A stretch of 64,000 nt of DNA from Asterochloris sp. CNOR1 (lineage: Eukaryota; Chlorophyta; Trebouxiophyceae; Trebouxiales; Trebouxiaceae), in the NCBI GenBank assembly GCA_963969365.1, contig OZ017749.1:1426001-1490000 (forward strand), in the 5' to 3' direction. Made by a program: the position numbers and the translations under genes. Position 1 is the first letter of the stretch; every line of letters starts with the position of its first letter. Positions 5,155-61,926 of the stretch are shown one piece after another. Under the pieces are notes generated by a model, which saw nothing but the letters and a program-made list of their open reading frames with translations, was not told where the DNA came from and searched no databases.

Positions 5155-7365
5155 ATGCTGGCAGCATGGCAGAGGCAAGCGGGCTCTTGCTGGCTGACTG
5201 GGAGAAGAGCTTGCAGGCAATGGCAAGCTTGCCTCTTGACAGCTTTGTGGCACATGGCAGACATGTGGCAACTGCATGAGGCCCCCCCCTGCAAGGTGCA
5301 AGATGCCTTCACCAATTGCCAGCGGCTGCAGTTGCTCTTTCACATCACAGAACACACCCTGCTAGGCTGGACTGTGCGGAGATGGACGTCACCCCTGCTG
5401 CAGCTGAATGAGGGCCCAGGGTGGAAGCTGGGGTATGGTGCAGCCAGCAGTGATCCTGCCTCCTTTTCAGCAGTCATTGGGGCAGAGGATTGGAGCCTGA
5501 CGCTGAGGCGTGCAGAGTATGACGACTTTGTGCAGGCAAGTAATGGAGCCATCTGCTGCCTCCTGTGGGCCTTAGAGGGGGGTCAGCTTTTAATCATCTT
5601 ACACTCCGGGATGGCATGCCGGCCTGCCCCTGCTGCTCATCCCCTCACCAAGCTCACATGCGCTGGTGCCTGCAGTTGCTCCGCAACCTGAAGCACAGTG
5701 TGGCCACGCTGCAAGTGCACTCCGGGGAGTGGGGCGTGGGGTCACAGGAGAGGGATGAGGCCACCTTGGAGGTGCACACCGACCGTGTATGGCTGCAGGG
5801 GCGTGCCTCCCAGAGGCGTCTGGCCAGGCTGCAGGTGAGTGCTGGCACTCGCTGACTGTCCATGGGTCAAGCCGCGTGGACCTCAGTGGCTAGCGAGCTG
5901 GCTCCAGGACTGACGATCCCCCTCAAACTGCCACGGCCAGGCTGCAAGTTGTGCTGTACCTGCAGTGTGGGCAAATGTCTGCTGTCCTGCCCGGGTGCCT
6001 CACTGCATGTGTACAGCGAGCTGCAGGCTGCCTTACAGATGCGCCTGGCCAAGCTGCTGGTGCTTGTCGCAGCTGCATTCAGGTCAATCTCTATACCCCA
6101 TTTTGTGAGGTACTGGGTGGCACGACGGCAAGCTGCACCTGGGTGCTGCCAGGCTGGCTGGGTTTTGGCGCCTGCCTATGGCTGTGCTGGGGAGCACCTT
6201 CACAAATCGTCTGGGCAAGCTGAGTGTGCATGAAGGCAGACCCTGGAGGCGCAGCTGCCTAGGTGTCCATGCTTGCAACAGGAGCTAACTGCGGGGATGA
6301 ACCCTTTCTTGCAAGTGTTTGTTTGTTTGCAAGTGGACGGGCAGAATGAGGTGTGGCTGTGCACTTTTTGAGCTGCACCAGCGCAGAGTTGCCCAAGCTA
6401 GCTGATCCCAGAAATGTCTGTTCAAAAGGCCTGCCTAAGGCATCTTGCAAGCTACATGCTGCAAGCTGCTCTTTTTGTCGGTCACTGTGTGCGGTGGACC
6501 ACCTCCAAGCTTGGAGAATGGCATGCCAAATGCATGGATCGGATCAGCCCAGAAGCATATGGCCAGGCTACTCATCTAATTTGCGTTAGCACCCTGCCAG
6601 CTTATCTGTCTAATGAATGAGGTGCATTTCTGCTTCTGCTGTGTTGGGGGTTGACCTCCCACGGGTACCTTGAGAGTGCTGCATACTTGAGGCCTGCAGC
6701 TGATTGGTCTCCTGCCCCACTGCTTCCTCAGCTCGTCGTGCTTTGCCGCGCAGCGGTGTCCCCAAGACCTACCATGACGCAGCCCTGTCAACCATGTGCA
6801 GGACATCTGGCAGCGGCGCAGCAGGGATGGCACGGCAGAGCGCGCTTTTGGTCTTCGCTTTGTGATAGGGGCCCCTGGCGAGCGCGAAGTTGAGGGCAGC
6901 TGGTCTCCTGAGGCAGTCATGCAGGCAAGGCCGGCAATCAAGAGCTTGTGGCACAAGCAGTCTAGGACCAAGCACGCTGGCTGCGCGTCCCAGAGGGAAC
7001 CACTGATGCAAGGCAGCAGTACTCACAAGCAGGCAACGCTGTCCATGCAAAGGGGCTCCTGTGCTATGCAGCTGTATTGGTTGCCTGTGAGTGTCCCTGT
7101 GGCTGGCGTGCAGCGGCGACCATATTCTGCTGTGCCCTCAGAGACTGGCAACAGACCCCAGCAGCATCGCATGCCGAGCTCTGGCTGCCGGGGCTGTATG
7201 CAGGCACAATCGAGGGCGGCGGCCTTGCAGCCGCAGTCTTGTTGTGTGCTGCCAAATCTCCATCTGTGGCTGCAGGTCTTAGGGCACTTGGAGGCAGAGC
7301 AGCATGCTGAGGGTGTTGCATCCAGTGTGGCCGGCCGTGCCGCATCTCGCCCCGTGAAGGCCTGA
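5155..7365 (+). CDS. DUF1818-family chloroplast protein
   Basis: DUF1818 proteins are small proteins of unknown function found in cyanobacteria and plastid-bearing eukaryotes, so plastid location is likely. Four exons fit with all junctions in phase 0: about 5155-5535, 5676-5834, 6802-6924 and 7276-7365. The conserved core reads GPGWKLGYG, then VIGAEDWSLTLRRAEYDDF, then TDRVWLQG and FGLRFVIGAPGEREVEGSW, in the family order. Cyanobacterial members are about 120 residues. This model gives about 250, because it has a long N-terminal extension (possible transit peptide), an insertion between the last two core blocks, and a C-terminal tail ending SRPVKA. The start is uncertain; 5155 is the first ATG in frame and 5254 is another candidate. 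Two of the three introns use a GC donor (GCAAGT at 5536 and GCAAGG at 6925). The 967-bp second intron contains decayed copies of its own donor region. The gene is convergent with the sorbitol dehydrogenase gene. Confidence 0.8.
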
Positions 7366-7885
7366 CTATGCAGCGTCCCTCCCTATCAAAGCCCCGAGAC
7401 TGTCAGGCTGGGTTGTTTTTAATATGAGCTTCCATCTCTTCTGGCTTTTCCCTTCCCACAATTTTTGATGCCCCTGCTCTCTATTTTGCGGCACCACCAT
7501 GGGTTTTGCACCGAGAAGAGACACCATAGCCACCCAGTGTTGAGGCGATGAGTTGTGCGTTCAAGATTATGTTGTTGCTTCAATTCAACAAGTATGTGGG
7601 GTACTGCAGTCATGCAGTGACGATCTCACTTGCTGTTCTAATGTAAAAGGGCAGTCGACAACAGTAGCTCTCAATTGCGCCGAAAAAATTGTTGTAATGT
7701 CTGAACTGAATGTGAGGCATCCAGGCAATGACGCAGACCCAGCATTTGCGCCCCTACTGCTGGCTAGTCATCAAATAGATTTGGCGGCATCTGCTCACAC
7801 AGCTGCAAGGGGTGCACTGCCACGTGAATGGGAGCTACCCAATGCTCCTGCTGAGCTGGCCCACAAGCTAAGTTCAACTTTCTCA
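7366..7885. other. Convergent intergenic region, 3' UTRs
   Basis: This lies between the stop codons of the DUF1818 gene (+) and sorbitol dehydrogenase (-). A TGTAA motif, the usual chlorophyte poly(A) signal, occurs on the plus strand near 7693 and could serve the DUF1818 transcript. No further gene is supported. Confidence 0.4.
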
Positions 7886-10800
7886 TCAGTCCGCAAGATT
7901 GATCATGACCTGCAGACGTCATCAATGCACTTCAGCTGTATGAGCATTGTACGTAGCTTACCAGCAGATGAAGAGCATGAGCAGCTTGTACAACACAAGC
8001 AGCAGGCTGCTCGGCAGGCACAAGTCACCTTGATGGCCTTGGTCTCAACAGCCCTGCAGGACAGCAGGGCAGTAGTCACAGCACTGCAGTCCCCGGCGTC
8101 AGGGACCTGCTCTCAAACGCTTTCAGAGAGAGCTGCAGATCCCCAACCCAAGGAACATTGCAAGGGCCATGCTCTCCCTTGCGCCATGTGTCACAAACCT
8201 CTGCTCCATGCCAGCTCAGACTTAATATGCAGCAAGTGCAGTGATGGGCACAGCATTGCAAGCTTGCCTGTAAGCTGTGTCAAAAGCCTGCTCCATGCCA
8301 TCTCCTGTGAAGGGGTAGCGATGCGTGATCAGGGATCCCACATCAATTCGCTTATTCTCCATCATCTTGATGCACATGGGGTCTGCAGCAGCCAGCAGGG
8401 GAGCTGCGTTGACAAGTGGGACTCAGCAACTCAACAAGAACCATGCTGGGCTGCACCTGCAATGCCTGGCAGCACAGCTAATTCAAGCCAGGCAGGCAGG
8501 CCATGGGTCAGCACTGGAAATTATGGCTTCGCAGCCCAACAAACATGGAGATATGCCCGATGATGTGCAGCAGCTTTGCTCTGGCAAGGGCAGACCTCTG
8601 TGGCATGTCTGACAAGGGTACGACATGCTGCTTCAGGTCAAGGGGTGCAGCTTGTTGATTCTGTGCTGCAATGGATGCAGGATTCTGCCAGAATGCGTCG
8701 TCCATCTGAAAGCCCTCCAGGCTGGTCACCAGCAGTGGCTCACATGTGTTGGCATAGCGAAAGGAGCCCATCAGACTAATCTCCTTCACAGCCACGGTTG
8801 CTGAAGGGATTTTGGCGTACTCCTGGCCCATGCCCACCAGGACGACGCGGCCGCCAGGGGCACAGGCACGAATGGAGGTCTGCAAGCAGAGCAATGATGT
8901 TCAAATTGTTGCCAGGCATGCTTGTGTCAGGAGGGCCGCACCTGGCAGCCTGCAGGGACTGCAAGTAGCAGCACGAAGCTGGCGACCTGAGCAGAGGTGG
9001 GGGGTGCCCCTGGGCACTGCTGCAAAGGATGCTCCTGAGCACAAACAGGGGGTGTGAGGTGCTGTGGGCACCGCTGCCAGCATGCCCTCAAGATTGGCCC
9101 CATGAGCACCCTGCTGCTTCAGCACTTGGTGCCTTGAAGTCAGCAGTGTGCTTCCACACGACCCCTGCCAGGCGGCCCCATGCACCAGTCAGGGCATCAG
9201 CAGCGCCTCTGAGATGATCCTCAACACTCACCCCTGAGAGTCTGTCTCGCCTGCACCATCACCACCAATGACGCACACAACAGCTGACTTTTGCACCGTG
9301 AAGTCGAAGCCAGAAGCGTCAAGCATAGTGGTAAGACCTGCTGCAATTGCACTAGATTCAATAGCAATGCCACAACCTGCACTGTAGCCTCCAAGCTGGC
9401 AGCTTCAGTTACCATGTCAGGGTCTGCCAGCCAATAGAGCCTGTACGAGCAAATTCTGCGCGAGCAGCCCCTACCAACAGCAGCAGCAGCAGGGGCCAGA
9501 GTTCTGCCCCCTGCTGACCTACATCGGCCATTCAGCTCCAACAGTGCAGAGCACGCCCGCACACCTGCACTGTGACCTCGAAGCCGGCAGCGTCAATGAT
9601 GATGTCAGGTCCATGTGGGGGAAAGATGGCCTTCAATCTTCGCGCTGACTCCTCAGGCAGGTCGTCCATGCGCGGCCTGAACAGGATGTTTGCACCATAG
9701 AGGGCTGCGCGGTCCAGGTTCTCCTGCTTCACATCTGCAGCAGGGGCACTGTTGTTGTGGCGGGGTGCCTGGACGGCGGCCAGAGACTCTGAGTAGATTT
9801 GCAGCTGTCAGTACTGGGTCGCTAGGAGACGGCTTGCTTTGAGAAGCGGGGCATCGATTGCTCAGTCAAGACAGCGCAGCACCAGCTGGCAATATATGTT
9901 TTTAAAGGTGTACACAGCATTGTGAGCCAGCAGCATGCATCAGGGTGAGGGCTTTCGCGATGTGCACCCCTGCTGGGGCCTGAGGTTGCCAGCGGCATGC
10001 CGGCAGGCTGGAAAGTGCTCGGCAGTCTGCATGATTCACAAATGAGCAAGGCGTGCAAGACAAGTCAGCCGCCCTTCAGCTCTGCAGCCTCACCCCTCCA
10101 GCAGCTGAACCAGCTCACCTGCAATTGCGATGTTGTCTGCGCCGTATGCCTGCACAGCCTTCAGCGCCAGCAGACCTGCACGTGCGTCACTGGTCAGGCA
10201 GCTGCAGAGCGTGCGGTCGCCTCCATCAGCACAGCACAGGAGCTGTGACAGGGTGCGCAGCTGCACCCCCCAGACGTAAGGCACATGTTACCATACTACT
10301 TGGGGCCATGGGCATGCAGCTGGCAGCCCAAGCTGCCAGTAAGCACATCTTTCCACAAGGAAGCACTTATCACTGCTGCAGCTTGTTGGCTGACCCTGGC
10401 TGCTCTCCATTGCCTGAAAGCATGCCGTCTGGTTGCCCCTGCTGCTGCTTTTGCATGTTGAGCGTGTCTGTGCATCCCTGCTGGCTGTCCCTGCTGGTGA
10501 CATCTCAGGTGCCTGTGCCCTTCAGGAGACTGCCAGCAGTTGCTGTGAAGAATAGTTGAGTGCGTCAATTCAAGGAGTGTTGCTGTGACAATCACCCTGT
10601 CTGGGCGGCTGCCAGCTAGCTAGCACAACCCCACTGCAATGACTTGCCAGCGCAGATACCCCCATGATGGCCATCCCCAAGCAGGTTTACCAGCCAGCTG
10701 CCTGCCTGCTAGCCAGTGCAGCATGATAACCTGGTGCACATTCTGGTCAGCTCACCAATGGGCCCTGCCCCCATGATGACCACATTTTTCCCCGGCTGCA

Positions 10801-13013
10801 CTTCCCCGCGCCGGCAGGCATGCACAGCCACTGAAAGAGGCTCAATCATGGCCCCTTCCTCCATTGTTACGTTGCGCGGCATCTTGAAGCAGAAGTCGCT
10901 GGGATGGTCCAGGTACTGCAGGGGCAGGCAGGGGGCCAGTGAGAACTCGTGCATCAGTGCACCTTTCATGCAGTAGTTCCCGGGGTTACATAGGTACTGC
11001 AGGGCAGGGACGCACTGAGGGATCCTGCAGCAGTGCACCTTGGCTGCAGAGTTTGTTGGGTGGTCCAGGCACTGCAGTCTGGCAGATGTGCAGCAAAGAT
11101 CACAGCATTTTGATTCACACATTGCTGTAGCATCCTCAGGAGGTCACAAATCAAGGCCCAGCTTGAGCTGAGCGGCAAAGCAATGCATGTTGAGGCAGAA
11201 GTTGCTGAGATACTTCAACTATTGCGCGGTAAAGCTGGCATGCATCACATGGAGACAGGCAGGTGGTGCCGTCAACAGACATGGACGAGAAGCTTAGCGT
11301 GGACACACCAGGCCACCAACTGGTAGACAGGAGGTATGCTCGACTGCAGCCAGCATAGACACCTCACCTCCATGAGAGAGCCATGGTACGGCGGAGTGGC
11401 CCAGAATTTCAGGTCTTCACTCAAATTGTACCTCCCTTCTCTGCAGGCAGGCAAGCCAGTCTCAGATGGCAGGCATCACAGGCTGCCAGGCCTCACATGG
11501 CAGCGGGGCCTGGCTGTCCAGCTCTGGCCTGCAGCTTGCACAGCCAGACAGCTGCAGTCAAAATCTGCCCCTGCTGTGCGATCATCTGCATCCCAGTGGA
11601 AGCACCAGGTGGCTGGCCGACCAGCAGCCGGGACTTGAGTGCATGAGGCCAGTGTCACGTGGCGCAGCTGAAAGAGGCAGGCGCAACAGCTGGCTGCCTG
11701 CCAGCTAATGAGAAGGCAGCCACTGTCTCTGCAGGAGCATTAGCTGGTCATAACCCAAGGCGAGACTTGCTGCTGGGACAGTGTGTGCAGCTGCTGCATG
11801 CGCTCTGACTGCTGCCCAATTATGGGACGGATGAGGTGGGTTAAGATGAGCTCAAGCATCGGACAGCTCTTGCTCTGCACAAGGGGCTGGCAAAGGCCCC
11901 TGCAAGTCATTCCAGCGGTTGGCAGTACACAAAGAGTTTGTTGCTTTAGCAGGGAATGCCAGACTCCATGGGCTCTCTGTCCCTCACAGCAGCTGGCAGC
12001 ACACCTTGAGGACTTGTTGGTCCAGCATGGAATGCCAGGCTCCATAGCCACTCTGTCCCCCACTGCCAGGTCTGTGACGCCCTCCCCCAGCTCCACAATG
12101 GTGCTGCAGGAGAGGATGCAGCATGTGAGCAGCCAAAAGTTTCCATAGACAGGCCTTGGCCAGTGCTGCAGGCATGGCTTGCTGCAAGGAGCCGACACCT
12201 CTCATGCAGCAGACGCTAAGCCCATGCTTTTCCAGGGTTGCCAGGCCGCCATACTCTCCACTTGCCAGGGACGATCAGCCCTTGCAACATGAGGTCTGCA
12301 AGCAACCATGGTCTCTAGGTGCAATGAATGCAGAGCCCATGCTAGGCGCAGGGCTTGCTGTGCAAGCCGATCGGAATGATGCAGTCAGGTCGAGGATGTC
12401 GGTGTTGGCTAAGTGCTGCAGTGCACTGCAGTGTGCAGCAGCAGCACACAGGAGGTACCAGCGAGATAGCCTCCACATGAGCTGTGTAACTGCTGTTGCA
12501 GTGTAAGTTAGCATCATGCTCACCCTGCGCTCTCATGGCCAAGCACCATGGGGGCATTCACATGGAAGTCTGCAATCTTGCCACGCTTCCAGTCTGCAGG
12601 CAGGGAGCAACCATGGGAGCTCCTTCCTGGTAAGGCGACGTGATGTATAGGCCTTTGGAAGGGTGAGTGCAGGCAGCATCAAAAGCACCCTGTCAAAGAG
12701 CTGTGAGGCTTACAGTGGACATCTGAGCCACAGATGCCGCATGTTGACACCCTTACACGGACTTTGCCTGCAGGCAGCACATGTCAGAGCTGTCAGCAGC
12801 CACACACAGAGCGAGGCACGGCATGAGACTTGAACATTGACACTCATGATGCACCATGGACGCACACACAAGGGCAAGCCTGGCTGACTTAGGCCATGAG
12901 CAGATGTTGAGCAGCTTACCTGGCGCAGGCACCTGGGGCAAGTTGAACTGCTCAAACCGCATGTCATTGATGCCGTGGAGGATTCCAGCATTATTTCTTA
13001 TCGGTGCTGGGCC
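7886..13013 (-). CDS. Sorbitol (L-iditol) 2-dehydrogenase, zinc-dependent MDR family
   Basis: The enzyme oxidises sorbitol or related polyols to ketoses with NAD+. Twelve exons join in one frame: 13013-12920, 12767-12714, 12593-12524, 12103-12005, 11440-11368, 10915-10756, 10175-10119, 9734-9565, 8879-8744, 8382-8268, 8053-8029 (25 nt) and 7909-7886. They give 358 residues, a near-complete enzyme; a short 5' exon with the start codon is still missing upstream of 13013. Landmarks are the catalytic zinc ligands in CGICGSDVHYW, GHESAG and IEPLSVAVHACRR, the Rossmann motif GAGPIG, and SFRYANTYP near the C-terminus, which ends IKVMINLAD. The usual structural-zinc cysteine cluster is reduced to one Cys in EPGIPCWTNKSSREGRYNL, as in animal sorbitol dehydrogenase. 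The intron after 8268 has a GC donor. Several introns hold decayed copies of adjacent exon edges. A long plus-strand reading frame across the 3' exons is antisense noise. Confidence 0.95.
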
Positions 13014-13468: not shown

Positions 13469-15537
13469 ATGCGGATCACCACGCTCTGCGATAAGTCTGC
13501 TTTAGTCCTCTGTCATATCCGTCCGCCCGGCAGGCACTTCCACAGAGTTCCACGCTGTGCTTCATCTGCTGGTGATGGCGGTGAAGCTGGGCAGTCAACT
13601 GGACCCCTCAATCAGCTGAGCGCCACCATAAAGTAATGTTGGCTGCAGCATCGCATATCTGCATGGATCAGCAAGCAGCTGATGCAGAAGCATGCCTGCA
13701 GGCGCAAGCAGCGGCAGATGCAGGCCCGCCTTGAGGAGCTGGGTACTGAGTCGCTGAAAGAGCGGCTGCAGATGGCCACTCAGATGCCTTCACCCACTCC
13801 ATACAGGCTGTCTGCCCTCATACAAGTAGGTATGCATGGGTCAGGCTGCTGGCAAGGCACCTGGCTGTTGCGGCAACAGCTGCCACATCCCTCAGACATG
13901 GTGCCTATTGAATCCCCAACCCAGCCCTAAATGTCGTGGGCATCGGCAGCCAGTCTGCAGGGCTGTCCTGCCTGCGGCACTGTGCACCTATGCCGCACCA
14001 GGAAAGCGCTGAAGCCAGTGCAGCCGGCGTCGCTGCCCGCCACTGCACCCAGAGCGCTGACCTGGCGCCGCTGGCAGAATGCAGGAGGCCATTCCCCAGT
14101 ACAAGACGGTCCTGATCTTTGAGGTTGCACGATCCAGCACAGTGCAGACGCCGGAGGCCATGGGGCAGCTGTGTGCCGACCTTGTGGCCGCCGGCGCAGA
14201 TGCAGTTGCCGTTAGAACAGACGCAGAGGACACCCCACAGGGAGCTGCGGATCTGTTTGCCTCCTGCCGGGCCACCACTGCACCGGTGCTGCAGCTGGAC
14301 TGGCACCTCCACCCTTTGCAGGTGGGCGCTGAATGTTGCTGCTGATGCAAGTGCTGTTTAGCTGCTGAGTTTGATCTCTATGCTGCCTCATCTGGTCACA
14401 GCTGGGCACAGCAAGGTTACTAGATTTTGCGTGGCCGCGACTTTGGAGTGAAGCTGTGCACATGACATCTGGCATCTGGAGGACACAGCCCTGATCCTGC
14501 CAACAGTCCCGCACAGCCGACGAGGCCAAGTATCTGCTGCAGCTTCAGGGCTGCACATGCAGGCAGCCTGAAGAGCACCGTGTAGCCCCCAGCACTTTCC
14601 ATCTGCCGCCTTCAGACCAGCCATGCCCTGCTGCGTACTGTATCCACCCCCGCAGCTTGGACAGCCAAGCTGTGTTCTTGACGGCGGTGATGCCACTGTA
14701 GATAGCAGAGGCCAAGGAGGCAGGCGCCGCGGGGGTCATTGGGGTGGTTGCCCAAGTACTGGGCAACGGCGCTCCAGTGATGACCAGCTTTGCTGCAGCC
14801 ATTGGCCTGGATGCCCCTTTGGAGGTGAGCATGTGCTGTCCCAACAATGCTCAGCTCTGCTGCAGCCATCCGCTATATTGCACCCTTCAGGTAACTGGAG
14901 CTCTGCCTCTGAGAGGTGGTTGCCTTGTTGAGCCAAGCCCACTGCCGCTTGTCTCTGAGGGTTGGCAGGCAGGCGACGGGGACCTTTTGTGACAGCAGCT
15001 TCTCTGCTGGTTTGTAGACTTCCAGACCATGAGGTCAAGCATGGGCACCCTTCCCTGAGCTTCTTGGCGTTGCTGCTCTTGCACAGTGCCGCTGGTGTAG
15101 ATTAGCCTATGAGGTCTGCGACATAGGGTGCTGTCTTTAGCTGACCTGCCTCTCCAGCTGCGTTGGCTGTGATTGTGGTATGGTTCATTGAGATGCAACC
15201 CGCAGCTCTCTGCATGCTGCTGCAGGTGGTCAATAAGGCAGAGGTGGAAAAGCTGGAAAAGCTTCAAGTCCCGTTCTATGCGGTCAACTGCTCAGTGGGC
15301 CTGTCACTAGCCATCCCATCCTTTAGGCAGGACCTTGCCAAGGGACTCTTAGGCAACATGCCCTTTGGCATCATTACGATGGTGGGCGTAAAAACCTTTG
15401 AGGAGGCAGTGCAGGCTAGGCTGAATGGAGCAGATGCGCTGTTATGCAAACGGGACCTATTGGAGCAGCTAGAAAGAGATGGAATCAGTCTTAGGCAATT
15501 TGTGGATGAGCTTAGATATGCTGTCAGTGGCGAGTAG
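13469..15537 (+). CDS. Indole-3-glycerol phosphate synthase-like TIM-barrel protein
   Basis: The fold matches indole-3-glycerol phosphate synthase (tryptophan pathway), but the active site looks altered. Exons 13469-13632, 13702-13825, 14085-14321, 14702-14824 and 15226-15537 join cleanly to 319 residues. The N-terminus is basic and Ser/Arg-rich (MRITTLCDKSALVLCHIRP), fitting a chloroplast transit peptide. Barrel strands are visible as VLIFEVARSS, ADAVAVRTDAEDT, APVLQLDWHLHP, AAGVIGVVAQVLG, VEKLEKLQVPFYAVN and GADALLCKRDLLEQL. In the enzyme the lysines of the EVK-SPSKG and LCKDF motifs do catalysis. Here the aligned segments read FEVARSSTV and LQLDWHL, so both lysines are absent. The protein may therefore be a non-catalytic or repurposed paralogue. 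I am confident of the fold, less so of the role. Confidence 0.83.
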
Positions 15538-15821: not shown

Positions 15822-21073
<5,252 letters not shown>

Positions 21074-37600: not shown

Positions 37601-40600
37601 CTGCCTGGATGGTCCCTCTGGTGGCACTATCCTCCTGAGGTGCTACACCAGCAGCCGCTGCAGGGTGATCAAAGGCCAGGCCAGGTTGAGGCAGACAGGC
37701 CATCGGTGTATCCTGCAGATGCTCAGTGTCAGTGTACAGCCTGACATCTGTCTAGGAGCTGTGTCACCTTGAATAGCTGGTGTGCTGACACGCTTCAGCA
37801 AGACAAGAAGCCCCATTCACACAGGCCGTACAGAGAGATAATCTGCCTCTTTTGTACACACATCCACCTTTGTCGTACACCCTGTTGCTGCGTGGGCATG
37901 GGCAGCCCGCTCCCCGTGCACCTGGCTGGCTGCTGTGCTGGTATGCTTAAGCAAGATAAGGAGCGTCACCCACACAGGCTGTACAGACAGACATCTGCCT
38001 TTGGTGTACACCTTCTTGCTCTGTGAGAATGGGCAGCCTGCTCCCAGTGCAAATCTGGCTGGCCATGTGACCTGAGCCATCACCGGCCCGGAGTCATCCC
38101 CACAGCAGCATGGCAATTGCTGCAAAGGTCTGGGCACCAGGCTGCTTCACAGTTGCTTTGTGGCTGCTTTTGACCCAGCTCAAAAGCAAACATCCGCTGC
38201 TGCAGGGTGAAGCCACTAAGGCAGAACAGCAGGCACCACTGCTCCACCCATAGCGCCAGTCCTCCGTGTCGAATTGTGCGCCGACCCATGACTGGATGCT
38301 CTCCCTGCAGGGAGACGCTATCATGGCAGCATGGCCGGCGCCGCAGTTGCAGCGCCAGTCCCCGCCCAAGTAAGCATCGACGACTTGATGGCGGGCCACC
38401 CCCTGCGCGGCACTCTCGCCGCCATGATCTGCGGTCCCCACTGTCGTCATCCCACAGGCTGCCCTCTGACCAGAATGGACACCATGTTCCCCATGAGCGG
38501 CGCGCGAGCAGGTGTGACCTGCAGCAGGCAGCCACTTGCAGCAGATAGGGCAGCCAGCTCATCATCGAGGTTCTGGGCTGATGTGTCCAGCCTGAGCGGC
38601 GCCACAGCAGGCGGTGGCCTTCAAGCTCAGAAAGCAGCGCTTCTTGACCACTCCTTGACTGCTGGTGGTCCTGACTGAGAGTGCACGAAGCGCTCCGCAC
38701 CGTGCATGTCCAGTATCTCTGAAGCAAGTTGGCCTGACTTCTTAGGGCTGACGAGCACTTCAACACCCCCTGGAGCCTGCACACACTGGGCGCAGTGTGC
38801 AGCGTGTGGCTAAGTGGTCTCTGCTAGAGTCAGGCAGGGTGTTTCTATAGGACCTTCACTCATGATCTAGCTGGTCCTCCTGATCTCACAGGCTGACACG
38901 GGTGCTTTATGCAACCGCAGCTGCTCCACCTTGTCTGAGCACCCACACCAAAGTGACATGGATGGGCATGGTGTCTGCCAGGGTTGGTCGGGTTGTGAAA
39001 AAGAAGCTAATCCTGCGAATGCTTGGCTGGCAGGGCTGCATGCACCATGGCAGCTCAGTACATCTGCTGCTGCTTCCAGGCATGAGGAGGCTGAGCGCCT
39101 ACACCACAGTAACAGAGATGGGCATCAGGCAGACAGGCACTGCAAAAGCAGTCGCCATGTGGAACACAAGGCTATGCAGGGTCAGCAACGGTGCGTGCCT
39201 GCAGTTTCAGCCAGGCTGAGGCAGCTTTATTCGAGTGCTGTTCATCAGGCCTGTTGCTGCGTTATGCTTGATTGGTAGGATTAGCGCTTAGCAAAACGTC
39301 ACCTGCTGCTTCCTCAAAAACACAGAAGGTCCATGCATGCTGGCTGGAGAGCCCGCTGCCACTGTAAGCCAGTTTCCAGTCCAAGACGGTGATGTACCTT
39401 GCCAAAGCTGCTGGTGTCATGCGGCTTTCTCAGCAGCTCAAGGGTGTCAATGCGTGCCAGCTCAAGCACTCTGACTTCGTCGCGCACAGCTCAAGGTGCC
39501 CACTCTGTCTTGTGCAGGCGGGACGCAGACTTCAAGGCTGAGCCCAGGGAGATCTTGGTCAAGCACGAGGCCATGGATCAGCCTGCCACAGGGCCGCGCT
39601 ATGGGCTGACCATGCACGAACAGGCCAGGCTGGGGCAGGACAGGTGAGGCTCACGGACAGCAGCTGGATGAGGGGGAGATTCAGCTGGTGGTGCAGGCAG
39701 CATTGATGACGGCTAATGCTCCTTGTCTGATCAAGGCAGCCTGCTGAAGCCGAAGGCACCAGCCAAGGCATTCTCTCGTGGCCTCCCCCAAGGCCCTCCC
39801 TCAGGGCATGTTCTTTGAGGGAGGTCTCCCTCTTGGCATCTCCACAGCATTCCCTGCTGGCACTCCTCAAAGCTTTTGCTTGAGCGCTCCCTCAAGGGGT
39901 CCTGACTGCGCCATTTCCTCAACACCTGGAGCTCACAAATGCCTGGTTCTGCCTTGAACAGGATGATGCACCGCCTCCTGCATTGCAGAGTGCTGTGTGA
40001 AGGTGTGCACTGGCGTGTACAGCTCGCATTGCCTGAGGGATTCCAGCTGGGGTGCCTGATACCAGTGCATTATGCCTGGACCTCCCTACATTTGTGGCTG
40101 TGCTACTGCAGGGAGTCTGCAACAGATGCCACAAAGCGGCGCATCCAGGAGGCTGTGCATTTGCGAGAGGAGGAAGCAGCAGCAGCCAAGGCTGCCCTGG
40201 CAGGCAAACGTGCAGATCACAGGTGAGGATCTCTGGGCAGCAGTGCTGTGCGGCCACGCACCTTGTTGCTCCAAGTCTGGCAATTTAGGCGGGCAGGCGC
40301 TCAGAGTGCAGGGGTAGACCTGGTGCAAGTAGCAAAACCTGCTGCTGACTCTGGGACTGGAACAGAGCCATAGCTAAGATGTAGTGCACAGGGTGCAGGC
40401 CTGTTCCACAGGACCAAGCGTCGACCACACAGCTGGAACCCACTGCTCACGCACTGCAAGGCAGTGTGCCAACGCACCAATTGCCCAGCCCCAGCTCTAT
40501 CTCACTGTGCAGTACTGCACGACTGTGTGCCGATTTGGTGAGGAGAATTTTGTGCACGCAGCATGAAGCTAGGCCCATTGCCCAACTGCCGCAAAACGGG

Positions 40601-41405
40601 GCGCCTGGCGTATGGGAAGCGTGCCCATCTGGCTGAGATGGCCTGGAGGCAGCCAGCATGCAACCTGTTGCAGCAGGACAGGGTGTTTTGCCTGGTTGAT
40701 GAGAACCCAAGCTTGCACGTGCATCCGTCACACTGATGCAGGACAGCCTGTTGCACTGAGCAGGACAACATGATGGTGGCCATGCACCACTGTACAATCT
40801 CACTGCAGACTGCTGCACTCCACTTCCCCCCCTGCTGCAGGGCAGGAACTGAGGGTGATTACTGCTACAATGTTCGTAATCCCTGCACAGTCAGACCAAG
40901 CAAAGTCTCGCACTTCACTTCCCACCTGCAGGACAGGACGCGAGACTCAAGCAGGAGAAGCCTTACACTGACATCCCCATGTAAGAGCACACTGCAGACT
41001 GCTCAAACCCGGAGTGCTCCTGCTGCAAGGCAGGGCGCCTGACCAAGGAAGAGGCAACATGCAGCTCTGACCACCACACCAAGCATTATGCTGAACTCCA
41101 CTTTCCCCTGCTGCAGGACTGGGCGCCTGACCGAGGAGGAGAAGCGTGCCCGCCTGGCTGAGATGGTGGGCGATGCCAGCTTGCACGACGGGCAGCGCTG
41201 GGACCGCCTGCACAAAGCGCGCGTCAAAGAGGAGGAGGAGCTGCAGGCCACAGGGCCAGGAGGGCCCTCTGATGGAGCCAGATTCCTCAAAGAGGCCCAC
41301 AAGAACCTGTATGGCGCCAATGGGGAGGCTTCCTCCCTAGAGGACAGGGTGGGCAGGAGGAAGTTCTACAATGACCATGGAGAGGGAGCAGCCTTTAGAC
41401 GTTGA
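34651..41405 (+). CDS. CWC25: Pre-mRNA splicing factor CWC25 homologue
   Basis: CWC25 joins the activated spliceosome and promotes the first transesterification. Eleven exons join with consistent phase: 34651-34666, 34777-34954, 35770-35902, 36214-36312, 36487-36561, 36839-37032, 38311-38511, 39080-39190, 39518-39643, 40112-40222 and 41117-41405, giving 510 residues. The 16-nt first exon supplies MGGGL. The N-terminal CIR_N domain follows, with FLNKKTWHPGRMDNQEKVWK and LEEERQREELL. Next come the CWC25 blocks SDRLDWMYQGGM, HSDPLF and IAKNPVQMESIK, a Lys-rich coiled coil, an RS-like exon (RRRSCSASPRPSKHRRL) and the C-terminal block TEEEKRARLAEMVGDA to VGRRKFYND. Family members are often shorter. 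The introns, up to 1.3 kb, carry several decayed copies of exon 2 and 6 donors and of the last acceptor. Confidence 0.95.
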
Positions 41406-48420: not shown

Positions 48421-48563
48421 CACTTTGACAAGCAGTCAACTCATTATAAGGCCATTGTTTCTGAGAAGACGAAGCAGAGCTGAGGGCAGCAAGCATTTTG
48501 ATCAACAATGCATTACAACATGTGCTGTGAAAGGTCTAGACAATGGCTTGCAGAGCTTGCCAT

Positions 48564-53053: not shown

Positions 53054-54080
53054 ATGGGTGCCTCATCACCTGCCACGCAGCAAAGTCATCAGCCGGGTGA
53101 GACTGTCCAGGCCTGTAGCTGCAATAGTCCTCAGTATCAATCCGGCAGAAGCAGCAGGCTCTACTCAATAACATCTGACATCCATGCACCTGATCACCTG
53201 ACACCACGCACACCATCTGCAGATGCAGCATATCCAAGCATTCAGGCTGAGCAGCAACATTTTGCTGCTCAACCTGTCCATCAGGCACAGCCAGCAGCAG
53301 TGGCCCAGGGAACAAGTGTTGGGCCCATGGCGGTTGAGCAGCCCCTGTACTGTCCGCCAGATCAGCGGCTTCCTGTCTACCTGGGAGTACGGGAGGGGCA
53401 TGCACCAATACCAATTCACTGTGGGACTTGCGGCTACCAAGGCATGTCTGATGTCAGGTGGGCCCCCCGGCCGCAACTGACTGTCTCCAGTTCAGGACCA
53501 TGGTGCAAATCCTGCAGCATTGGCCGCAGCGATGCACCTCCAAAAGGCGTTGTCTGCACAGCAACCTGGCTGTGCTCCGGTGGGAGCCTGGCACTCAGCA
53601 TGTTGACTGCATGCTGCAAATCTGCGTGTCATCAGCCATAACGCTATGGCCTGAATTGGGGTGGAGGACATTGGCTAAATGGACTGCATTGTGCAGGTGG
53701 CGGTCCTGTCCTCCACTGTGCACCCAAAAGCATGCACCAACGACATGCCTTTTCGCCGTCAGAATTGCTGTGCCGAGTCCAACACTCCTGACTTGTGCCT
53801 ATGAAGTGACCCTTGCAGCTGTGCAGGACCAAGAGAGGCTGGGCCCACAGCATGTGGGCCATGATGACGCTGGGAATTGGGCTGCTGGTGAGCCATCATG
53901 GAAAGGCCCTTGGACTACGTGCTGCTGGTGGAGAAGGGGCCGCCAGCAATGCGTCCTTCCAGCGTTGCATATTCTGCCATCAGAGACTGTGTGGCCTGTC
54001 TGCAGGTGCCTGTGGCGTTGGACTCACATCACTTCTGTCCAAATTGTGGCAAGCATGTTGCAGAAGCTCGGCTCATGTGA
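53054..54080 (+). CDS. LITAF-domain membrane-associated protein
   Basis: LITAF domains bind zinc through two CXXC-like pairs that flank a membrane-embedded hydrophobic segment, and act at endosomal or plasma membranes. Exons 53054-53457, 53827-53887 and 54006-54080 join in phase to 179 residues. The N-terminal 100 residues are Ser/Gln/Pro-rich, as in other LITAF proteins. The domain reads IPIHCGTCGYQGMSDVR, then the hydrophobic segment WAHSMWAMMTLGIGLLV, then ALDSHHFCPNCGKHVAEARL. The C-terminal H-x-C-P-x-C motif is exact. The middle segment is shorter and less hydrophobic than usual. ATG 53054 is the first in frame. A minus-strand frame across the first exon is its shadow. Confidence 0.78.
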
Positions 54081-54311
54081 TGCTCCAGACCTCCAGAGGA
54101 CAGCTCTGCTGCACCTCAACCCTTTCTGGCAGTGCTCCACAAGCAGGTCTCTTCAGCAAGCAATAAATGACGCCTTCCTGGATCCATCAATGATGATGAC
54201 AAAATGTTTCAGGAGCGGCGATGAGCCCGGCAGTGGCAGAACCTGCAGCAGCGCCTGTATCAGCGTAGCGCTGCAGGCAGCTGCAGAGAAGCCGGCCTGG
54301 CTCAGAGCGAC
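54081..54311. other. Between LITAF gene and LINE ORF1
   Basis: This interval holds the LITAF 3' UTR and possibly the LINE 5' UTR. I could not see a target-site duplication that would mark the element border. Confidence 0.3.
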
Positions 54312-55718
54312 ATGTTCACCCGCGGCTCTCGCACCTCGTCCAGAGTTAGCGGGGGAACCTCCGAGGGCGCCCCTGCAGCGATGCCGCCTCGAGCGGGCCG
54401 CAAGTCCGCGTCAGAGGCGTTGACCATGCATCGAGAGCATAGGCCACGAGCGTCGAAAACGGCTGCCCCCACAGCGTCCGAGCAACTCAACCCTCCTGAA
54501 CTAAGTACCATTGATGAAAACGCTGTCAGTCAGGCTGCACCTAGCATGGCAGTAGTGCATGATGTTGCAGAAGGGAGCACTGTAGATGTGGAGACTGTAG
54601 TTGAGGCTGCAGCGGGGAGCATTGTGCCTGTGGAGGCCGCAGTTGAGGAAGCAGGCGCCAGTGTGGTTGAGGAGGGTGAATGGCCTGCTCCCAACTCCAC
54701 CCAGAGCAGCCCTGCTGCACCAGCTGATGATGCTGCTGCAGAACTTTCAACACCAACAACAACACCGAGCGATGACCAAGGGGAGATCAGCAGCCTGCAG
54801 CTGCTGGTCACCCAGCTGCTGCAGCAGAACAACCAGCTGCTGCAGCAGAGCAACCAGCAGCAGCAGCAGATCAACCAGCTTGTCGCCCAGCGGCAGGCTG
54901 ACAAGCAGCAGCAGGGTGCTGAGATCCAGCTGCTGAAGCGGCAGCAGGCTGCTGAGACCCAGCTGCTGAAGCATGAGGTCGCCAGGCTACGCGACGATGT
55001 GGGCAAACGGAGCAGCCACCAGGACCAGGCTGCCAGCTTGGAGAGGGCAAACACACAGCTGGCCGCTATGGGCCGGGACGTGGAACAGCTGCAGAGGCAG
55101 CAGCCAAAGCAGGCTCAGCGGACTGGGGCGGAGACCCACACAGCCATACCTGGGCAGCAGGCCCGCCGAGGCAGCCCAGGCGTGGCTGATGATGCTCATG
55201 GAAGAATTGCGCCTGAGCGTGCCCATGACTTCTTGCTGCACAGATTTCCTGAGGGTGCAGAGAACGAGCAGTGCTGAATGCAGCTTGTGGAGGGTGTTGT
55301 GCATGTCGATTTGGGGGTGAAGGGAGTGGACATATTGAGTGCCAAGAGGGTCAATTGCCAGAATCCAGCCTCCCCGGTGCTTGTGCAGGTTGGTGACGCC
55401 GCCCAGTGCATCAAGATGCTGCGAGCTGCCAGTCAGCTGCGACACAGCACACGCTACAAAGGAGTGGGCCTCACGCCAGACCTCACAAAGCAGCAACGCG
55501 AGCACAAGCAGAAGCAGTGGGGGACATACCTGTCTCTCAAAAAGCAGGGCTACACAGTGTGCTTCCACGGGGACGCCCTGGTGATGTGAAACAACAAGCA
55601 GTGGATGCCTATCCAGCACCCCACTGGCCCGCCGCCACCGCCGGCGGGGCCACCGGCGCAGCCTCCAACCCAGACATCACCTGTGCCACAAGCACAAAGC
55701 TCTGAGAGGGTGGCCTAG
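54312..55718 (+). pseudogene. LINE ORF1 (coiled coil, RRM-like and C-terminal domains)
   Basis: One frame spans 54312-55718, interrupted by TGA at 55275-55277 and again at 55587-55589. The first 130 codons are low-complexity, Ala/Ser/Glu-rich. Then comes a long Gln-rich coiled coil (LLVTQLLQQNNQLLQQSNQQ to about codon 270), an RRM-like part (VVHVDLGVKGVDILSAKR), and the L1 ORF1 C-terminal block LTPDLTKQQREHKQKQWG. The tail is proline-rich and ends at TAG 55716-55718. Both internal stops are TGA. Confidence 0.85.
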
Positions 55719-56050
55719 GAAGAAGGGGGTCACTGCGTTGAGCTCTCATGTGTTCTCTGGAACATGCATGGCGGGCTCAACCATGCTTATAACAAGGCTG
55801 ATGCTTTGAATGACCTGCATACTTTGGACTGCACATTTATTTGTTTGACTGAGACCTGGACTGTGCCTGGGGATGCTGTGTATGACTTGCCAGGCTATGT
55901 CTGTCATGAAGTGCACCGCCCCCAGCACCTGCAGAACCGCAATGGCCCCCGGGGTGGCATTGCTGTGTACATGAAGCAATGCGTTGCTGACCATGCTAAA
56001 TTTTGGAAAGCTGCAGATGACGGGACATACATTTGGCTGCACATTGAGCC
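55719..56050 (+). pseudogene. LINE ORF2, N-terminal part of the endonuclease domain
   Basis: This follows the ORF1 stop directly and in the same frame. It encodes CVLWNMHGGLNHAYNKADAL, then CTFICLTETW with the catalytic Glu, and RGGIAVYMKQ. This is the first third of an exonuclease-endonuclease-phosphatase domain. The remaining catalytic motifs (D-x-N, S-D-H) are absent because of the deletion. Confidence 0.9.
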
Positions 56051-57041
56051 GCATGGCGCGGTTGTACAGAGCATATTGCCTTTGCCACTTGCTACATGCC
56101 TCGCAACGGGACTTCCGCCTTGCTCTGGGGAGTCTTGCAGCTTCTGCACGCAAAGCCATGCATGCCATGCGCCGCAGATGCTTCCAGCTTGGTTATGTGC
56201 ACCCCCAGCACATGTGCAACTTGTGCAATGCATTGGTGCTGCCCATCCTCACCTATGGCTGTGAGGTGTAGTTCTGGCACCATGATGCCAGCAGCACAGT
56301 CACCAAAGTGCTGGAAGGCGTCCACCTCCAGTTCTTACGTGGCCTGCTGGGAGTGAAACGCACCACGCACCACTTGATTGCCCTGGCTGAGTTTGGCAGA
56401 TACCCGCTTGCTGTGCATTGGCAAAAACAAGTTGACAAGTTCAGGTTGCGCATTTGCAATGTCACTCGCACTGCATCTGACAACCCACTGTTCTGGGCGA
56501 TGTTTGACGGCACACCTAATGTGGAGGAGCCTTAGGCTCCTGCGTACCCCTGCTGGATTTGCTGCCTTGCAGGCCCGCGGGAGGCCTGCCAGCGCCCCCA
56601 GCACAGAGCACCATGAACGGCTCTTTGCGGAGAACTCAGACAGCACCGTGGCAACGTACAAGCAGTTCGCTGCGCGGCTTTAGCGCAGCGTACACCATGC
56701 AACCTTACATCCAGCAGATCAGAGGCTACAGACTGCGCAAATCAATGGCCCAGATCCGCTGCAGCAGCCACAGGCTGAGAGTTGAGACAGGCCGCTACAC
56801 ATCAGAAGCCAGACACGAGAGGACTTGCCGCCTCTGCACATCAGCAACCGCCATAGAAGACGAGCAACACATCTTGCTGCACTGTCCCCAGCTCAATGAC
56901 CTGCGCAACGCCCACAGCCACTTATTCCAGACGCCAGGACAGACTCTGACAGACCTCTTTGATGACCATCCCCCAATTTTGCTTGCTAAGTATGTGCGTG
57001 CAGCGCTGCTTATGCATCAATCAGTGCTGGTTTTGCCATGA
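56050..57041 (+). pseudogene. LINE ORF2, C-terminal region with zinc knuckle
   Basis: It encodes KAMHAMRRRCFQLGY and LVLPILTYGCEV, then after a TAG VLEGVHLQFLRGLLGVKRTT and LAEFGRYPLAVHW, typical of the segment downstream of the RT domain. After further frame changes it reaches RVETGRYTSEARHERTCRLC with EDEQHILLHCPQL, the CCHC-type knuckle of L1-like plant elements. The stop is at 57039-57041. Confidence 0.9.
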
Positions 57042-57150
57042 TCACATGAATTGTCAGTCCCATGCCCGTTCATTGTGGCCCCCAGACTTTAAATCCATTC
57101 TCCGTAGTCTTCATTCCGAGTTCGGTCATTGCTTTTCATCTTTATATTAG

Positions 57151-57520: not shown

Positions 57521-60500
57521 ATGGCAGCAGAGGCGCGCATCCTGCCTGGCCAGGCGTCATTGGCAACATTCAGGCGCCAGAAGGGGCATCAGTGCCAGCG
57601 TGCAAAGTGCAGGCACTGCGGGAACCATTTTGATACCCCTCCCTCAGCTTCAGGTACAGCCCTTCTCCATAACTCACGAGGGCTGACAGCTGGCAGCAAC
57701 TTGCCAAGCCAGGAGCCGTGGCTCGAGTGTTGTGCTGTCCTGCAGACTGCAAGGGTCCAGCAGGCCTGGGACCTGCTGGCCAGCAATGAGCGCCTGCTGA
57801 TTGTGGCGGCCTCCACCTTCCTGTGCAGCCTCTCACACACGGCCCTCCGACCTGTACTACCGGTGTTTGCCAAGGTGTGCTGGGCAGCTGCATGATAGCA
57901 TCAGGCCCGAGGCGTATGATGTACAGCTTCCATAGTGATGCTTAGCAGTGTGTCCTGTTCATAAGCAGGGAAGCCTTGGTTCTTTTGCCGGAGCTGCTTG
58001 TCAGCTCACTTCGAGCGGCTCTGCATGCACCAAAGAAGCTGGAACTGCTATGGTTCTGGCACCTGTGATCGACGCCTGCTGCCAGCAATGCCATATGATG
58101 CAGCATGAGGCTTTTGTTTGTGGTTTGCAGAAGGCTGTGTTCCAACCCATGCATGCCTTGGGCGAGTGATGCACTACTGCTTCACACGTGCTCATACAAA
58201 GCAGCCGGGCAAATCAAGGCGTGTGCACCTGCTGAGCCCTGTCCAGCCCAAGCAGGCTTCTTTTCCACCATCCGCCGCTGCTGCAGGGCTTTGGAGTAGG
58301 AGCTGCGGCTGTAGGCACCACCATCTCAGCCTATGCCCTGGCACGCCTGATGATGAACCTGCCCGCCGGGATGCTGGCAGACAGTCATGGGCGCAAGCCG
58401 CTGCTGGTCTGGGGCCCTGCCATCACTGCCTTGGGTGAGCTGCTGTCAGTCAGGGATGAGTGCAGCCAGAGGTGCAGGGTGCATTGCAGGTGCTGGTGTG
58501 GAGGTCTACCACATCTGATCTGTGTGAGCTGCTTGCATGCAGAATTTTGACACCATGCATGGAAGGTGGCAGGCACTGTGCGGAGTTGCAATGCAGTGTT
58601 GCATCGCATGTGGACCTGCCACCACAGCATTGGGAGAGCGGCTTTTGCCTGCTCAGAGATCTGCTTTCACTGGCTGGTTCCTTGGAGGCTAGGCTGCCTC
58701 AAGTAGAGCTGGCTCCACTCTCCGAGGAGGGCTGCCTTCAGACAGCCAGACCAAGCCTGGTGGCAGATTGTGTGCAGCCGGTGCAGATCTGGATGCCTGC
58801 AGTTTGGCAGGTCCTTGATGGGTGAGGTTGGCTCCTCACTTGACGTGCTCAAAGGGCTGCAGAGATCTACACTGGTGTGTTGCTTACTGTGTCGTATGCT
58901 GTGCTCAGGGCTGCACTCTGAGGGTCACAGCTGACAGAGCGCCCTTCAATAGCTCAGCCATGTGATCCTCTGTAATGCTGCCAAGGCGCACCTCAGGTAG
59001 CCTTGGTGGTGCCGTGGTGTATGCTGCTCAGCATGGCTCACCCTGCTTCCAGGCAAACACTGCAATGTGCAGCAACATAGGCAATACTTGTCAGGTGTGC
59101 AAAGCAGTGGGTCACACTAAACCTGCATCTTTAGCAAGGCCTGCAGATTGACTTCCAGAGAGCCCGCGTCGGCCCAGATTAATGCTGCAGTCTGCTCCTG
59201 CTGCCACATTGTAATTGCCTGAGACCATTTCTGCACCTGCCTGCAATGCAGGCAGCCAGGGGTGGTGGTCAGTTCATTCCTGCTGTCGTGCATCACTGAA
59301 GTGCATCTCTGGCGAGCCCTGGTGGCACGTCCTTGTTGTTGACTTGCTTTGCCCAGGACAGTTTCCCAAATTTCCTGCTGCACTACAGGCATGAATGGCA
59401 CTGGCTTGGGGGCATGCTCAGCTCTCACTGGCAATGCTGCACTGCAGGCATGATTGGCTGTGGGACAGCAGCCACCTTCCAGCACCTGCTGGCGTGGCGC
59501 TGGGTCACTGGCATTGGCTCAGCAATGCAGATGGCAGGGGCCCAGTTGTTCCTGGCAGACATCAGCCAGTCCAGCAACAGGGCACGCAGCCTTGGCATCA
59601 ACCAGGTGAGCGCTGCTTGCCGGACAGGGAAGCTTTTGCTCTTTCAGGCAGCAGCTGTACATATTATGTGCTGATCGCTGCCTGTGATGAGCCAGATGTC
59701 AGCAATGCCACCCTCTAGCTGTGGGGTTACTACGCCTTGCTGTCTATCTGATAAGGGTCCGCTCAGACTGGGCTCATCAGCGATGGAGATCACTGGAGGC
59801 CAGCATGCTGTGCAGGCCGCATCGTTGCTGGGTAGCCTCCTGGGGCCAACAATTGGCGGCTTCCTGGCAGAGATGATAGGGCTGAGGTGAAACATTTGCA
59901 CGTGCAGTTCCAAGATTTAAATGTGGATTAAAGGTCAGCTCAGAGCTGCCGGACATAGCCACGTTTGGCAACATCACTAGCTGCCTCTACAGTGGCTGCA
60001 GCACAGCTGTCAATTGAACGACTCTTGCGTGCAACGAACATGCAGTCTAGCACTTTACTGCCAGTCACAGGCGCACTTCTTGCTGCTGTGCTTGTGCAGA
60101 TTCCAAAGCAAAGGTTTGCTGCATCTCAAGTCAGCCGCATGCTGCCAATCAACGCCTTGTACTTGCAGGGCACCCTTCACAGTGACAGGACTTGCGGCCC
60201 TGCTGGCGGCCGCCTACGGCCTCTGGCGGCTGCCAGAAACCCGCCGAGCCTCTGGGGCGCCCCAGCCAGTCTTTGATCTGAAAGCACTGGCACATCAGTG
60301 GTCGCCTAAGCAGCTACTGGCATCCAGGTAGCAATCAAGCCAAATAAACCCCTTTTCTGTCATGCTGCTGTCCCCATGCAGCCAGCCCTCGCTCCAGGCA
60401 GATGGGAACAGTCTGAATGCAGTCTTCCTGTAGCATGCTTGTTGTGGCCACCCATTGTCCCATGCACAATAAACCTTTCAGGTCTCACTGGCGCCGCCAG

Positions 60501-61584
60501 ACCAGCTGCAGCCCAGCCTGCCATGATGCACTGGGTGTTCTGCAGGCCGGCTGGCAGGCCCAAGTGGCTGCAACTACTGCTGAGCCGCAATTTTGGGGCC
60601 ATCGCATTGGTCAACGCCTGCATGTTCATGACCCAGAACGGCGCACGTGCTGTTCTCATGCCCCTGCTGGCAATCCAGGGCTGTGGGCTGTCCCCCAAGA
60701 CGCTGGGTGAGCCTGCGTGGTGGTGTTGCCGTACCTTGGCCAGCCCAGGTTACTGGCCGTACTTTTCCATGTGATACAGCTGGTTATGACTATCAAGGCT
60801 GGGAGCTGCACGCTGTTGTCTCCAGGGGACAGGGGAGGTAAGTGACAGCCTTGAGCTGTGTCAACATCAGAGGTGCTTGAAGTGGCAAAAGGTCCAGCAG
60901 AGCTCCTCATGGCTGCATCAACAGAAGCTGTGTGTGTGACATGCAGGGCTGCTGTTCTCAGGCATGGCAGTGGTCAGCCTAGTGCTGGTCATGCCAGCCT
61001 CCTTTGTAGCTGACAAGCTTGGGCGCAAGTGGACAATTGTGCCCGGCTGCGTAGGGCTGGCTGCTGCCCTAGGACTGATGGCAGCAGCAGGTGAAACTGC
61101 AGCTTCACATCATTCCAGCACTGGCTCGATGCTGTGTACTCGTGCTGAGAGGAGCAACTGCAAGCAGCTTTTCATTATTGTGTGCAGGGAATGCAGCCTT
61201 CTTTGTGGCTGCTGCTGGGCTGTATGCAATGTGCAACGCCTGTATTGGAGCCACACCTGTAGCATATGCCAGCGATGTGATGCCATCTGGGCTGGGAGGC
61301 TTTGGACTGGGCATCTACCGGTGTGCAGGAGACCTTGGTGAGATGCGTGTGGGCAGTTTACTGAATTGTCTGAACCTCTGCTGCAACCCTGCCGTGGTAC
61401 CTCAGCATCCTGCACTTGAAGCCAGCCCCTACACTTCCTCCCTGCAGGACTGATGCTGGGCCCTGCCTTCCTTGGCTGGGTGGCTGACATGTCATCAGTG
61501 CAGACGGCACTCTGTGTAAATGCAACCATACTGCTGGCCGTTGTTGCCTTTTTCGGGATGCGCGCAGAAGAGACACATGAATAA
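57521..61584 (+). CDS. Major facilitator superfamily transporter
   Basis: MFS carriers move small solutes by proton coupling or facilitated diffusion. Nine exons fit in phase: 57521-57874, 58287-58434, 59448-59605, 59816-59886, 60169-60327, 60546-60706, 60947-61090, 61188-61337 and 61448-61584, giving 391 residues. After a 90-residue N-terminal extension (possible transit peptide, Arg/Ser-rich), helix one is LLIVAASTFLCSLSHTAL. The signature loop 2-3 motif is present, NLPAGMLADSHGRKPLLVWG, and is repeated in the C-half as SFVADKLGRKWTIVPG. Other helices include LLGSLLGPTIGGFLAEMIGL and TALCVNATILLAVVAFFGM. The sequence resembles drug/proton antiporter-like MFS_1 proteins, but the substrate cannot be told. 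The start ATG is the first in frame; translation could instead begin after a further upstream exon. The intron before exon 3 contains a close decoy of its acceptor. Confidence 0.93.
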
Positions 61585-61926
61585 GTGCTTTCAGCATTGA
61601 GAGAGTGAGAGCGCAGACTGCAAACCCCCTTCTGCAGAGGAGTCCAAACGCTTTGTTAGCAACCAATCACTGCAAATACTACATGCTTGATTGACATGCA
61701 TTCCTTTGACCTGATACCATTCTAGAAGCAGCAGCTTCATTGTCACAAGAATGGATTACTCTGAGACGGGCAGCTATGGTCAAAGGCCATATCCCTGACC
61801 TGGGTGTGAAAAGGCATATCAGTACAATGACATGCTGTGCGACCGGGCAGCTGAGGACGCCTTACAAACAGTAGCCAGGCCATGCTGGGCTGGCTGACTT
61901 AGCATGCCCTGCACCTGCATTGTTGA
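61585..61926. other. Convergent intergenic region, MFS and lipase 3' ends
   Basis: These 342 bases lie between the stop codons of the MFS (+) and lipase (-) genes. No other gene was seen. Confidence 0.4.

Follow-up and report, generated by a model that had tools for sequence, protein, structure and literature searches.

Decayed Copies of Adjoining Exon Edges in the Introns of the Green Alga Asterochloris sp. CNOR1

Introns Carry an Excess of Copies of Their Own Exon Edges

The window analyzed here is a 64,000-nucleotide stretch of the genome of the green alga Asterochloris sp. CNOR1 (positions 1426001–1490000 of contig 4, OZ017749.1; genome of 56.4 Mb in 21 contigs), in which a preliminary description had noted that introns hold diverged copies of the neighboring exon ends together with their splice sites. 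The observation was confirmed. A significant same-strand copy was found in the adjoining intron for 94 of 908 exon edges, ∼9 being expected by chance, and 37 of 48 gene models harbored at least one such decayed copy (8.1 expected by chance). Short tandem duplications across splice junctions, followed by neutral decay of the inner copy, probably explain these intron copies. The main sample comprised 264 kb of contiguous sequence (the window and the next 200 kb, together termed the joined sequence and numbered as such) and ten chaperonin loci, and the CCT and Cpn60 genes at these loci extended the sampling, with the window contig, to 8 contigs altogether (∼0.32 of 56 Mb). Thus, the view that many genes and several contigs are affected at once was borne out, with copies in 9 of the 10 chaperonin loci.

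The gene models were predicted, not annotated, by a purpose-built gene finder trained on the window and the next 200 kb. It converged on the donor CAG/GTGAG and the acceptor CTGCAG/G (slash, splice junction), with a median exon of 95 nt, a median intron of 200 nt, and 37 genes. At the 3′ splice site of the predicted introns the consensus was strikingly strong: TGCAG was nearly invariant (frequencies of 0.93–0.97 for T, G, and C), and C usually came before it. For the related lichen alga Asterochloris glomerata, a genome of 56 Mb with a guanine-plus-cytosine content of 56–62% in 98% of the genome and nine introns per gene is given in extracts of PMC6652019. Of 11 models in the window, 10 were submitted to Pfam and 9 of the 10 matched a family, including DUF1818, zinc alcohol dehydrogenase, indole-3-glycerol-phosphate synthase, proteasomal ATPase, chlorophyll a/b-binding protein, CWC25, MIP channel, and MFS transporter. 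Four predicted proteins were compared with solved structures; the zinc alcohol dehydrogenase was recognized as sorbitol dehydrogenase (aligned to 3qe3) and the proteasomal ATPase as RPT6 (aligned to 8amz_J and 12bm_C).

Each edge query consisted of 40 exon and 15 intron nt and was compared with the bordering intron against a null of introns of other genes, at a significance of p ≤ 0.01; in the later edge tests the intron prior was made stricter and exons shorter than 50 nt were excluded. Profiles of ungapped extension were of low power. The comparison of own-edge with unrelated similarity, which the preliminary description had named as the way to refute it, gave matches at 38/411 donor and 53/411 acceptor edges, far above the controls: the reverse complement (6/411 donor, 2/411 acceptor), the second intron along (2/280 for each edge type), and exon interiors (6/237 and 2/239). 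The six control sets spanned 0.5–2.5%, and intron interiors were higher at 3.4% (11/326). The enlarged set gave 40/454 donors and 54/454 acceptors, the chaperonin genes 11/85 and 18/85, and the window by itself 6/81 and 7/81. The 94 matches lay at a median offset of 137 bp (5–95% range, 63–262 bp). At an ungapped score of at least 14, the window held 98 direct-repeat segments at spacings of 20–300 bp (overlaps unmerged), a density of 3.3–9.7 for every million positions compared, with 0.6 at 5–30 kb, so that local direct repeats were about five to sixteen times denser at the short spacing. Tandem Repeats Finder returned 15 rows in the window, none overlapping the copies described below, which do not behave as minisatellites or variable number tandem repeats.

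The Copies Are Centered on Splice Junctions and Confined to the Bordering Intron

When a 40-nt window was slid across the edges, the frequency of matches was maximal 10 nt inside the exon (9.0% donor, 11.0% acceptor) and fell close to background at a depth of 70 nt in the exon (1.4 and 1.7%). Exon ends matched the bordering intron in 43/373 cases and the intron on the other side of the same exon in 3/351 (Fisher p 5e-10); for exon starts the corresponding figures were 57/378 and 6/361 (Fisher p 8e-12). A match in the own intron without a match on the wrong side is the arrangement that a tandem duplication spanning the junction produces, as had been proposed. In keeping with internal tandem duplication, the copies were next to the sequence they derive from and shared its gene and strand, occurring in the own intron and in direct orientation only. 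Arrays of several copies with regular spacing were present at several edges (RPT6, the CWC25 model, and position 213020 of the joined sequence, the last with four units of ∼92 bp).

Copies were not restricted to junctions. With four windows per intron, intron interiors had copies in 70/1452 windows (4.8%), and as interiors carry them likewise, the duplication process is not aimed at junctions, which are prominent chiefly through conservation of the exon copy. The proposed habit of intron lengthening was partly supported: it held for the number of genes affected and is qualified as regards splice junctions.

The Outer Copy Encodes the Protein in Two Genes and the Inner Copies Probably Decay

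Structural alignment showed that in RPT6 and in one Cpn60 gene the outer copy alone contributes to the protein, in agreement with the earlier claim that the outer copy keeps the reading frame. In RPT6, QQIKEIKE joins VIELPIKH directly, and the predicted residues 235–268, where two decoys had become exons, are skipped. In the Cpn60 gene of locus L031, aligned with 1iok, the alignment passes straight from query residue 314 to 356 and omits the decoy LEELQERLIKLSG. The alignment of CCT delta skips a similar decoy stretch (residues 233–259). The decoys look like exons, and some were called as such by the gene finder.

Mismatches between exon and copy were distributed near-evenly over the three codon positions, at 232/1008, 200/1011, and 252/1003 (0.230, 0.198, and 0.251), the third position being slightly in excess, a pattern like that of non-coding decay. 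The splice dinucleotides were kept in 15/23 donor and 32/40 acceptor copies whose alignment spans them, a measure biased towards retention, and in 6/15 and 11/27 of the copies found by exon sequence alone. The codon and splice-site patterns gave no clear sign that the decoys are either kept or purged. Splicing probably ignores the inner sites.

The Copies Fit an Old Episode of Duplication

In a duplicated unit, the two intron parts are expected to be similar at twice the divergence of the exon copy. The rest of the unit was collinearly similar at p ≤ 0.05 in 15/83 cases (4 expected). Neutral duplication of whole units was simulated forward in time. The observed copies (88 matches re-detected, 75 anchored) had an edge score of 19.5, an identity of 0.81, and a length of 37 nt, with 23/45/76% of the flanks similar at p ≤ 0.05/0.2/0.5, and the simulation at 0.35 substitutions per site gave 18.4, 0.80, and 37.5 nt, with flanks at 20/43/63%. 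The copies therefore fit, under this model, neutral decay of whole units aged ∼0.35 substitutions per site, an age at which 21–23% of copies are detectable in the simulation. The neutral model had seemed to be rejected by free local alignment (14/76 similar, against 40–95% simulated by identity class); older copies explain these data in fixed-age simulations, and the rejection was dropped.

A score of at least 30 was reached by 11/94 matches, against 48% expected under a constant rate of duplication (P ∼5e-12, a value that relies on the simulation and on the removal of nine presumed chance matches). With too few young-looking copies for a constant rate, the copies seem to stem from a past wave and not from a steady habit, and the age pattern speaks against the continuing process that had been envisaged. 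Most copies would then have arisen in a former period of greater activity, which the model places at ∼0.35 substitutions per site.

Several recent local duplications were clean head-to-tail tandems, the youngest at 41471, 47200, 206009, 229474, and 247882, and these we read as lying within introns or between genes. The first (41471–41652) is a nearly perfect tandem with a 95-bp unit immediately beyond the point where the CWC25 gene is predicted to end. The second (47200–47473) is a 139-bp unit doubled at 97–98% identity; it falls in a 3′ region of the MIP model that is itself doubtful, and where both copies were made exons. Two points count against the age argument. The gene models put predicted junctions in the tandems at 47200 and 229474, predictions that we think wrong; 229474–230107, a young junction-spanning duplication according to its gene model, was set aside as probably lying inside one intron of a gene whose protein is, by eye, glycosidase-like. 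Moreover, young copies may have been absorbed as exons by the gene models: 57/1133 tested exon pairs were similar, many of them from one repeat gene at 160–168 kb. By our own count, such cases soften the age argument and are too few to bring 11/94 near 48%.

The gene at 160–168 kb of the joined sequence (∼1586–1594 kb of contig 4) contains many exon-plus-intron repeats of ∼415–590 bp. One adjacent pair is 98% identical, a young duplication across junctions, and the gene appears to be undergoing whole-exon amplification.

Proposed Mechanism and Alternative Explanations

In the proposed mechanism, tandem duplications of tens to a few hundred bp would often have struck the genes of this alga. A unit that included a splice junction would have copied the exon edge into the adjoining intron, after which the outer copy would stay in use and be conserved, while neutral decay would affect the inner copy together with its splice site and the remainder of the unit; recurrence at one spot would give the arrays of three to five copies.

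Several results weigh against this explanation. The rest of the unit was without detectable similarity in 68/83 cases, and as it mostly escapes detection, duplication of the whole unit rests on the fit to old age. Other simulation settings (older ages, fewer indels) fit nearly as well, which makes the figure of 0.35 soft. Young-looking junction copies are scarce relative to a constant rate, and one chaperonin locus (L027) had copies at 0 of its 20 edges. By our own arithmetic, with double divergence allowed for, the implied rate is ∼0.35 per unit divergence at junctions against ∼0.23 in intron interiors. The junction excess over the prediction from intron interiors is widest in the chaperonin genes (29/170 edges against 10/304 windows), and some excess beyond the intron-interior rate stays unexplained.

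The strong consensus at CAG/GTGAG and CTGCAG/G adds matches at junctions, and similarity falls fast past ∼8 nt into the intron, so it might be supposed that the CAG/CTG-rich sequence and the splice consensus make any intron resemble any exon edge. However, the null introns share the consensus, the reverse-complement, second-intron, and wrong-side controls were near 1%, and exon sequence alone as the query still found copies at 16/411 donors and 38/411 acceptors. This reading by chance or composition, refuted by the own-intron controls and the wrong-side contrast, is left with hardly any probability. Equally implausible is an origin of the copies as relics of whole duplicated exons (old alternative exons). 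True exon-plus-intron repeats do occur in the gene at 160–168 kb and an acceptor-like CTGCAG precedes some decoys, but the match is limited to the edge bordering the intron, the far exon edge being unmatched, and exon interiors are not copied. Dispersed copying was likewise rejected, the repeats being local and the exon edges confined to their own intron.

Short templated insertions, by which 30–70 nt around the junction would be copied into the intron without the remaining unit, agree with the shortness of the similar blocks and with the 68/83 undetectable remainders; they would be expected to bring exon interiors or the far exon edge into the intron as well, which was not seen, and the flank similarity fits old tandem units, so we regard them as improbable. 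A similarly low probability is given to selection, or gene conversion from the exon, keeping the copies exon-like and younger-looking than their true age. The scarcity of young-looking copies and the surplus of junction copies over the intron rate would suit it, yet in the best simulation the decay of the flanks keeps pace with that of the exon-like part, splice dinucleotides were lost in 9/15 donor and 16/27 acceptor copies under exon-only detection, and the mismatches are without a coding-type pattern.

Copies in Individual Genes of the Window

Of the six genes in which the preliminary description had named copies, the five that could be matched to a gene model (DUF1818, sorbitol dehydrogenase, RPT6, CWC25, and MFS) were found to carry them, weakly in the case of MFS. 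In the DUF1818 gene (plus strand), the source exon at 5676..5834 ends at 5834, and its start was placed by eye. A copy of the exon end at 6020..6062 (offset ∼228) is 78% identical over 46 nt, and a second, weaker one at 6185..6245 (offset 391) is 64% identical over 61 nt with an ungapped score of 17. The outer edge is likely the one in use by reading frame (joined domain PF08848, 50.5 bits), and Pfam fails to discriminate the two copies (50.5 vs 49.9 bits). Near 5536, the intron upstream seems by eye to be of the GC-AG type (CAG/GCAAGT), which lies outside the model of the gene finder.

The sorbitol dehydrogenase gene (minus strand) has two copies of the exon end at donor 9564, at 9363–9421 (77% over 60 nt) and 9292–9322 (84% over 31 nt), with the 99% point of the null at a score of 16, and three copies of the exon start at acceptor 10915, at 10965–11008, 11035–11077, and 11185–11238 (70–77% over 44–54 nt). 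In RPT6 (minus strand), the true exon end with donor 18895, encoding QQIKEIKE, lies at 18876..18917 and was identified as the source copy by the structure alignments. The first decoy, 18701..18742, repeats exon end and donor at an offset of 175 (88% over 42 nt) and is missing from the aligned protein; the second, 18468..18501, lies ∼408 from the exon and is 82% identical to the first decoy over 34 nt and 95% identical to the exon over 20 nt; and the third, 18311..18339, is 79% identical over 29 nt to the first when the units are aligned. Some decoys of this type are preceded by an acceptor-like CTGCAG. The exon start at acceptor 19063 has a copy at 19268..19327 (71% over 63 nt; score 25 vs 17 for the 99% point of the null).

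In the CWC25 gene (plus strand), the exon end at donor 34955 is copied at 35072–35113 (71% over 42 nt), 35202–35228 (78% over 27 nt), and 35414–35438 (92% over 25 nt). The model, which around acceptor 41117 rests on the gene finder and not on Pfam, has copies of the exon start there at 40586–40641, 40819–40846, 40916–40961, and 41019–41053 (78, 82, 77, and 86% identity), the three nearest being ∼88–97 bp apart, and a further copy of an exon start at 38935..38969 for acceptor 39080 (83% over 35 nt). Short copies on the plus strand were found for the exon start at acceptor 59448 of the MFS gene (one copy, 59376..59404, 86% over 29 nt; score 21 vs 20 for the 99% point of the null) and for the exon end at donor 14825 of the indole-3-glycerol-phosphate synthase gene (14847..14869, 87% over 23 nt). 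The predicted proteins at 52507–57000 of the window and 213955–222138 of the joined sequence are retrotransposon-like by eye, with endonuclease, reverse transcriptase, and zinc-knuckle motifs.

Relation to Known Systems and Significance

Internal duplications of genes are reportedly common (Gao and Lynch 2009), a minority of genes (8–17%) reportedly having recognizable ones. Such intragenic duplications take in exonic and intronic sequence, as the present ones are proposed to do; the reported 8–17% of genes and the 37/48 gene models found here are not comparable, because the present test is more sensitive and edge-focused. Hellsten's work of 2011 is cited for the gain of introns through tandem duplication. 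Extracts of PMC3443670, PMC4974935, and PMC2891723 describe, as an accepted source of new introns, the tandem duplication of segments that contain splice or proto-splice sites, and the duplicated unit of potato RdRp crosses an intron–exon boundary (PMC4974935, extract). The likeness lies in a duplication that carries splice signals and, in potato, spans the boundary as here, whereas there a new intron arises and here existing introns appear longer and contain decoys. In Drosophila, tandem duplication of coding sequence with proto-splice sites gave novel intron positions, in few cases across 12 genomes and with coding exons as sources; the same paper cites frequent small duplications in natural populations (PMC2891723, extracts). 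Introners likewise shape introns genome-wide, green algae being among the lineages in which they have been found, but they are similar introns dispersed across genes (PMC9860276, extract), whereas in the present case each intron has its own, local similarity; within the window, there was no excess of repeats at 5–30 kb spacing.

The mechanism, as internal gene duplication and as intron gain by tandem duplication, is therefore known and in print, so that the novelty supposed in the preliminary description narrows to the density of the copies. Introns dense with decayed exon-edge copies had no description among the literature matches listed, from which subscription papers were mostly absent. This density is the new part and was measured in this alga alone, and no peculiarity to it is claimed.

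The copies pose a hazard for annotation, as a splice-aware gene finder took decoys for exons in the RPT6, CCT delta, and Cpn60 genes. As a genome and its gene models suffice for the contrast between own and wrong-side introns, other eukaryotes can be checked at once. If the age of ∼0.35 is right, about one in five copies is detectable, and nearly half of the splice junctions would once have gained a copied edge (extrapolated from 94/908). The introns of this alga provide a dense sequence-level record of how introns may lengthen by tandem duplication that includes splice sites, and not only by transposons. Since selection keeps the exon copy unchanged, every decoy can serve as a clock. It is conceivable, though on the doubtful side, that an ancestral genome-wide wave of short tandem duplication inflated the introns, which would then be datable records of a mutator phase.

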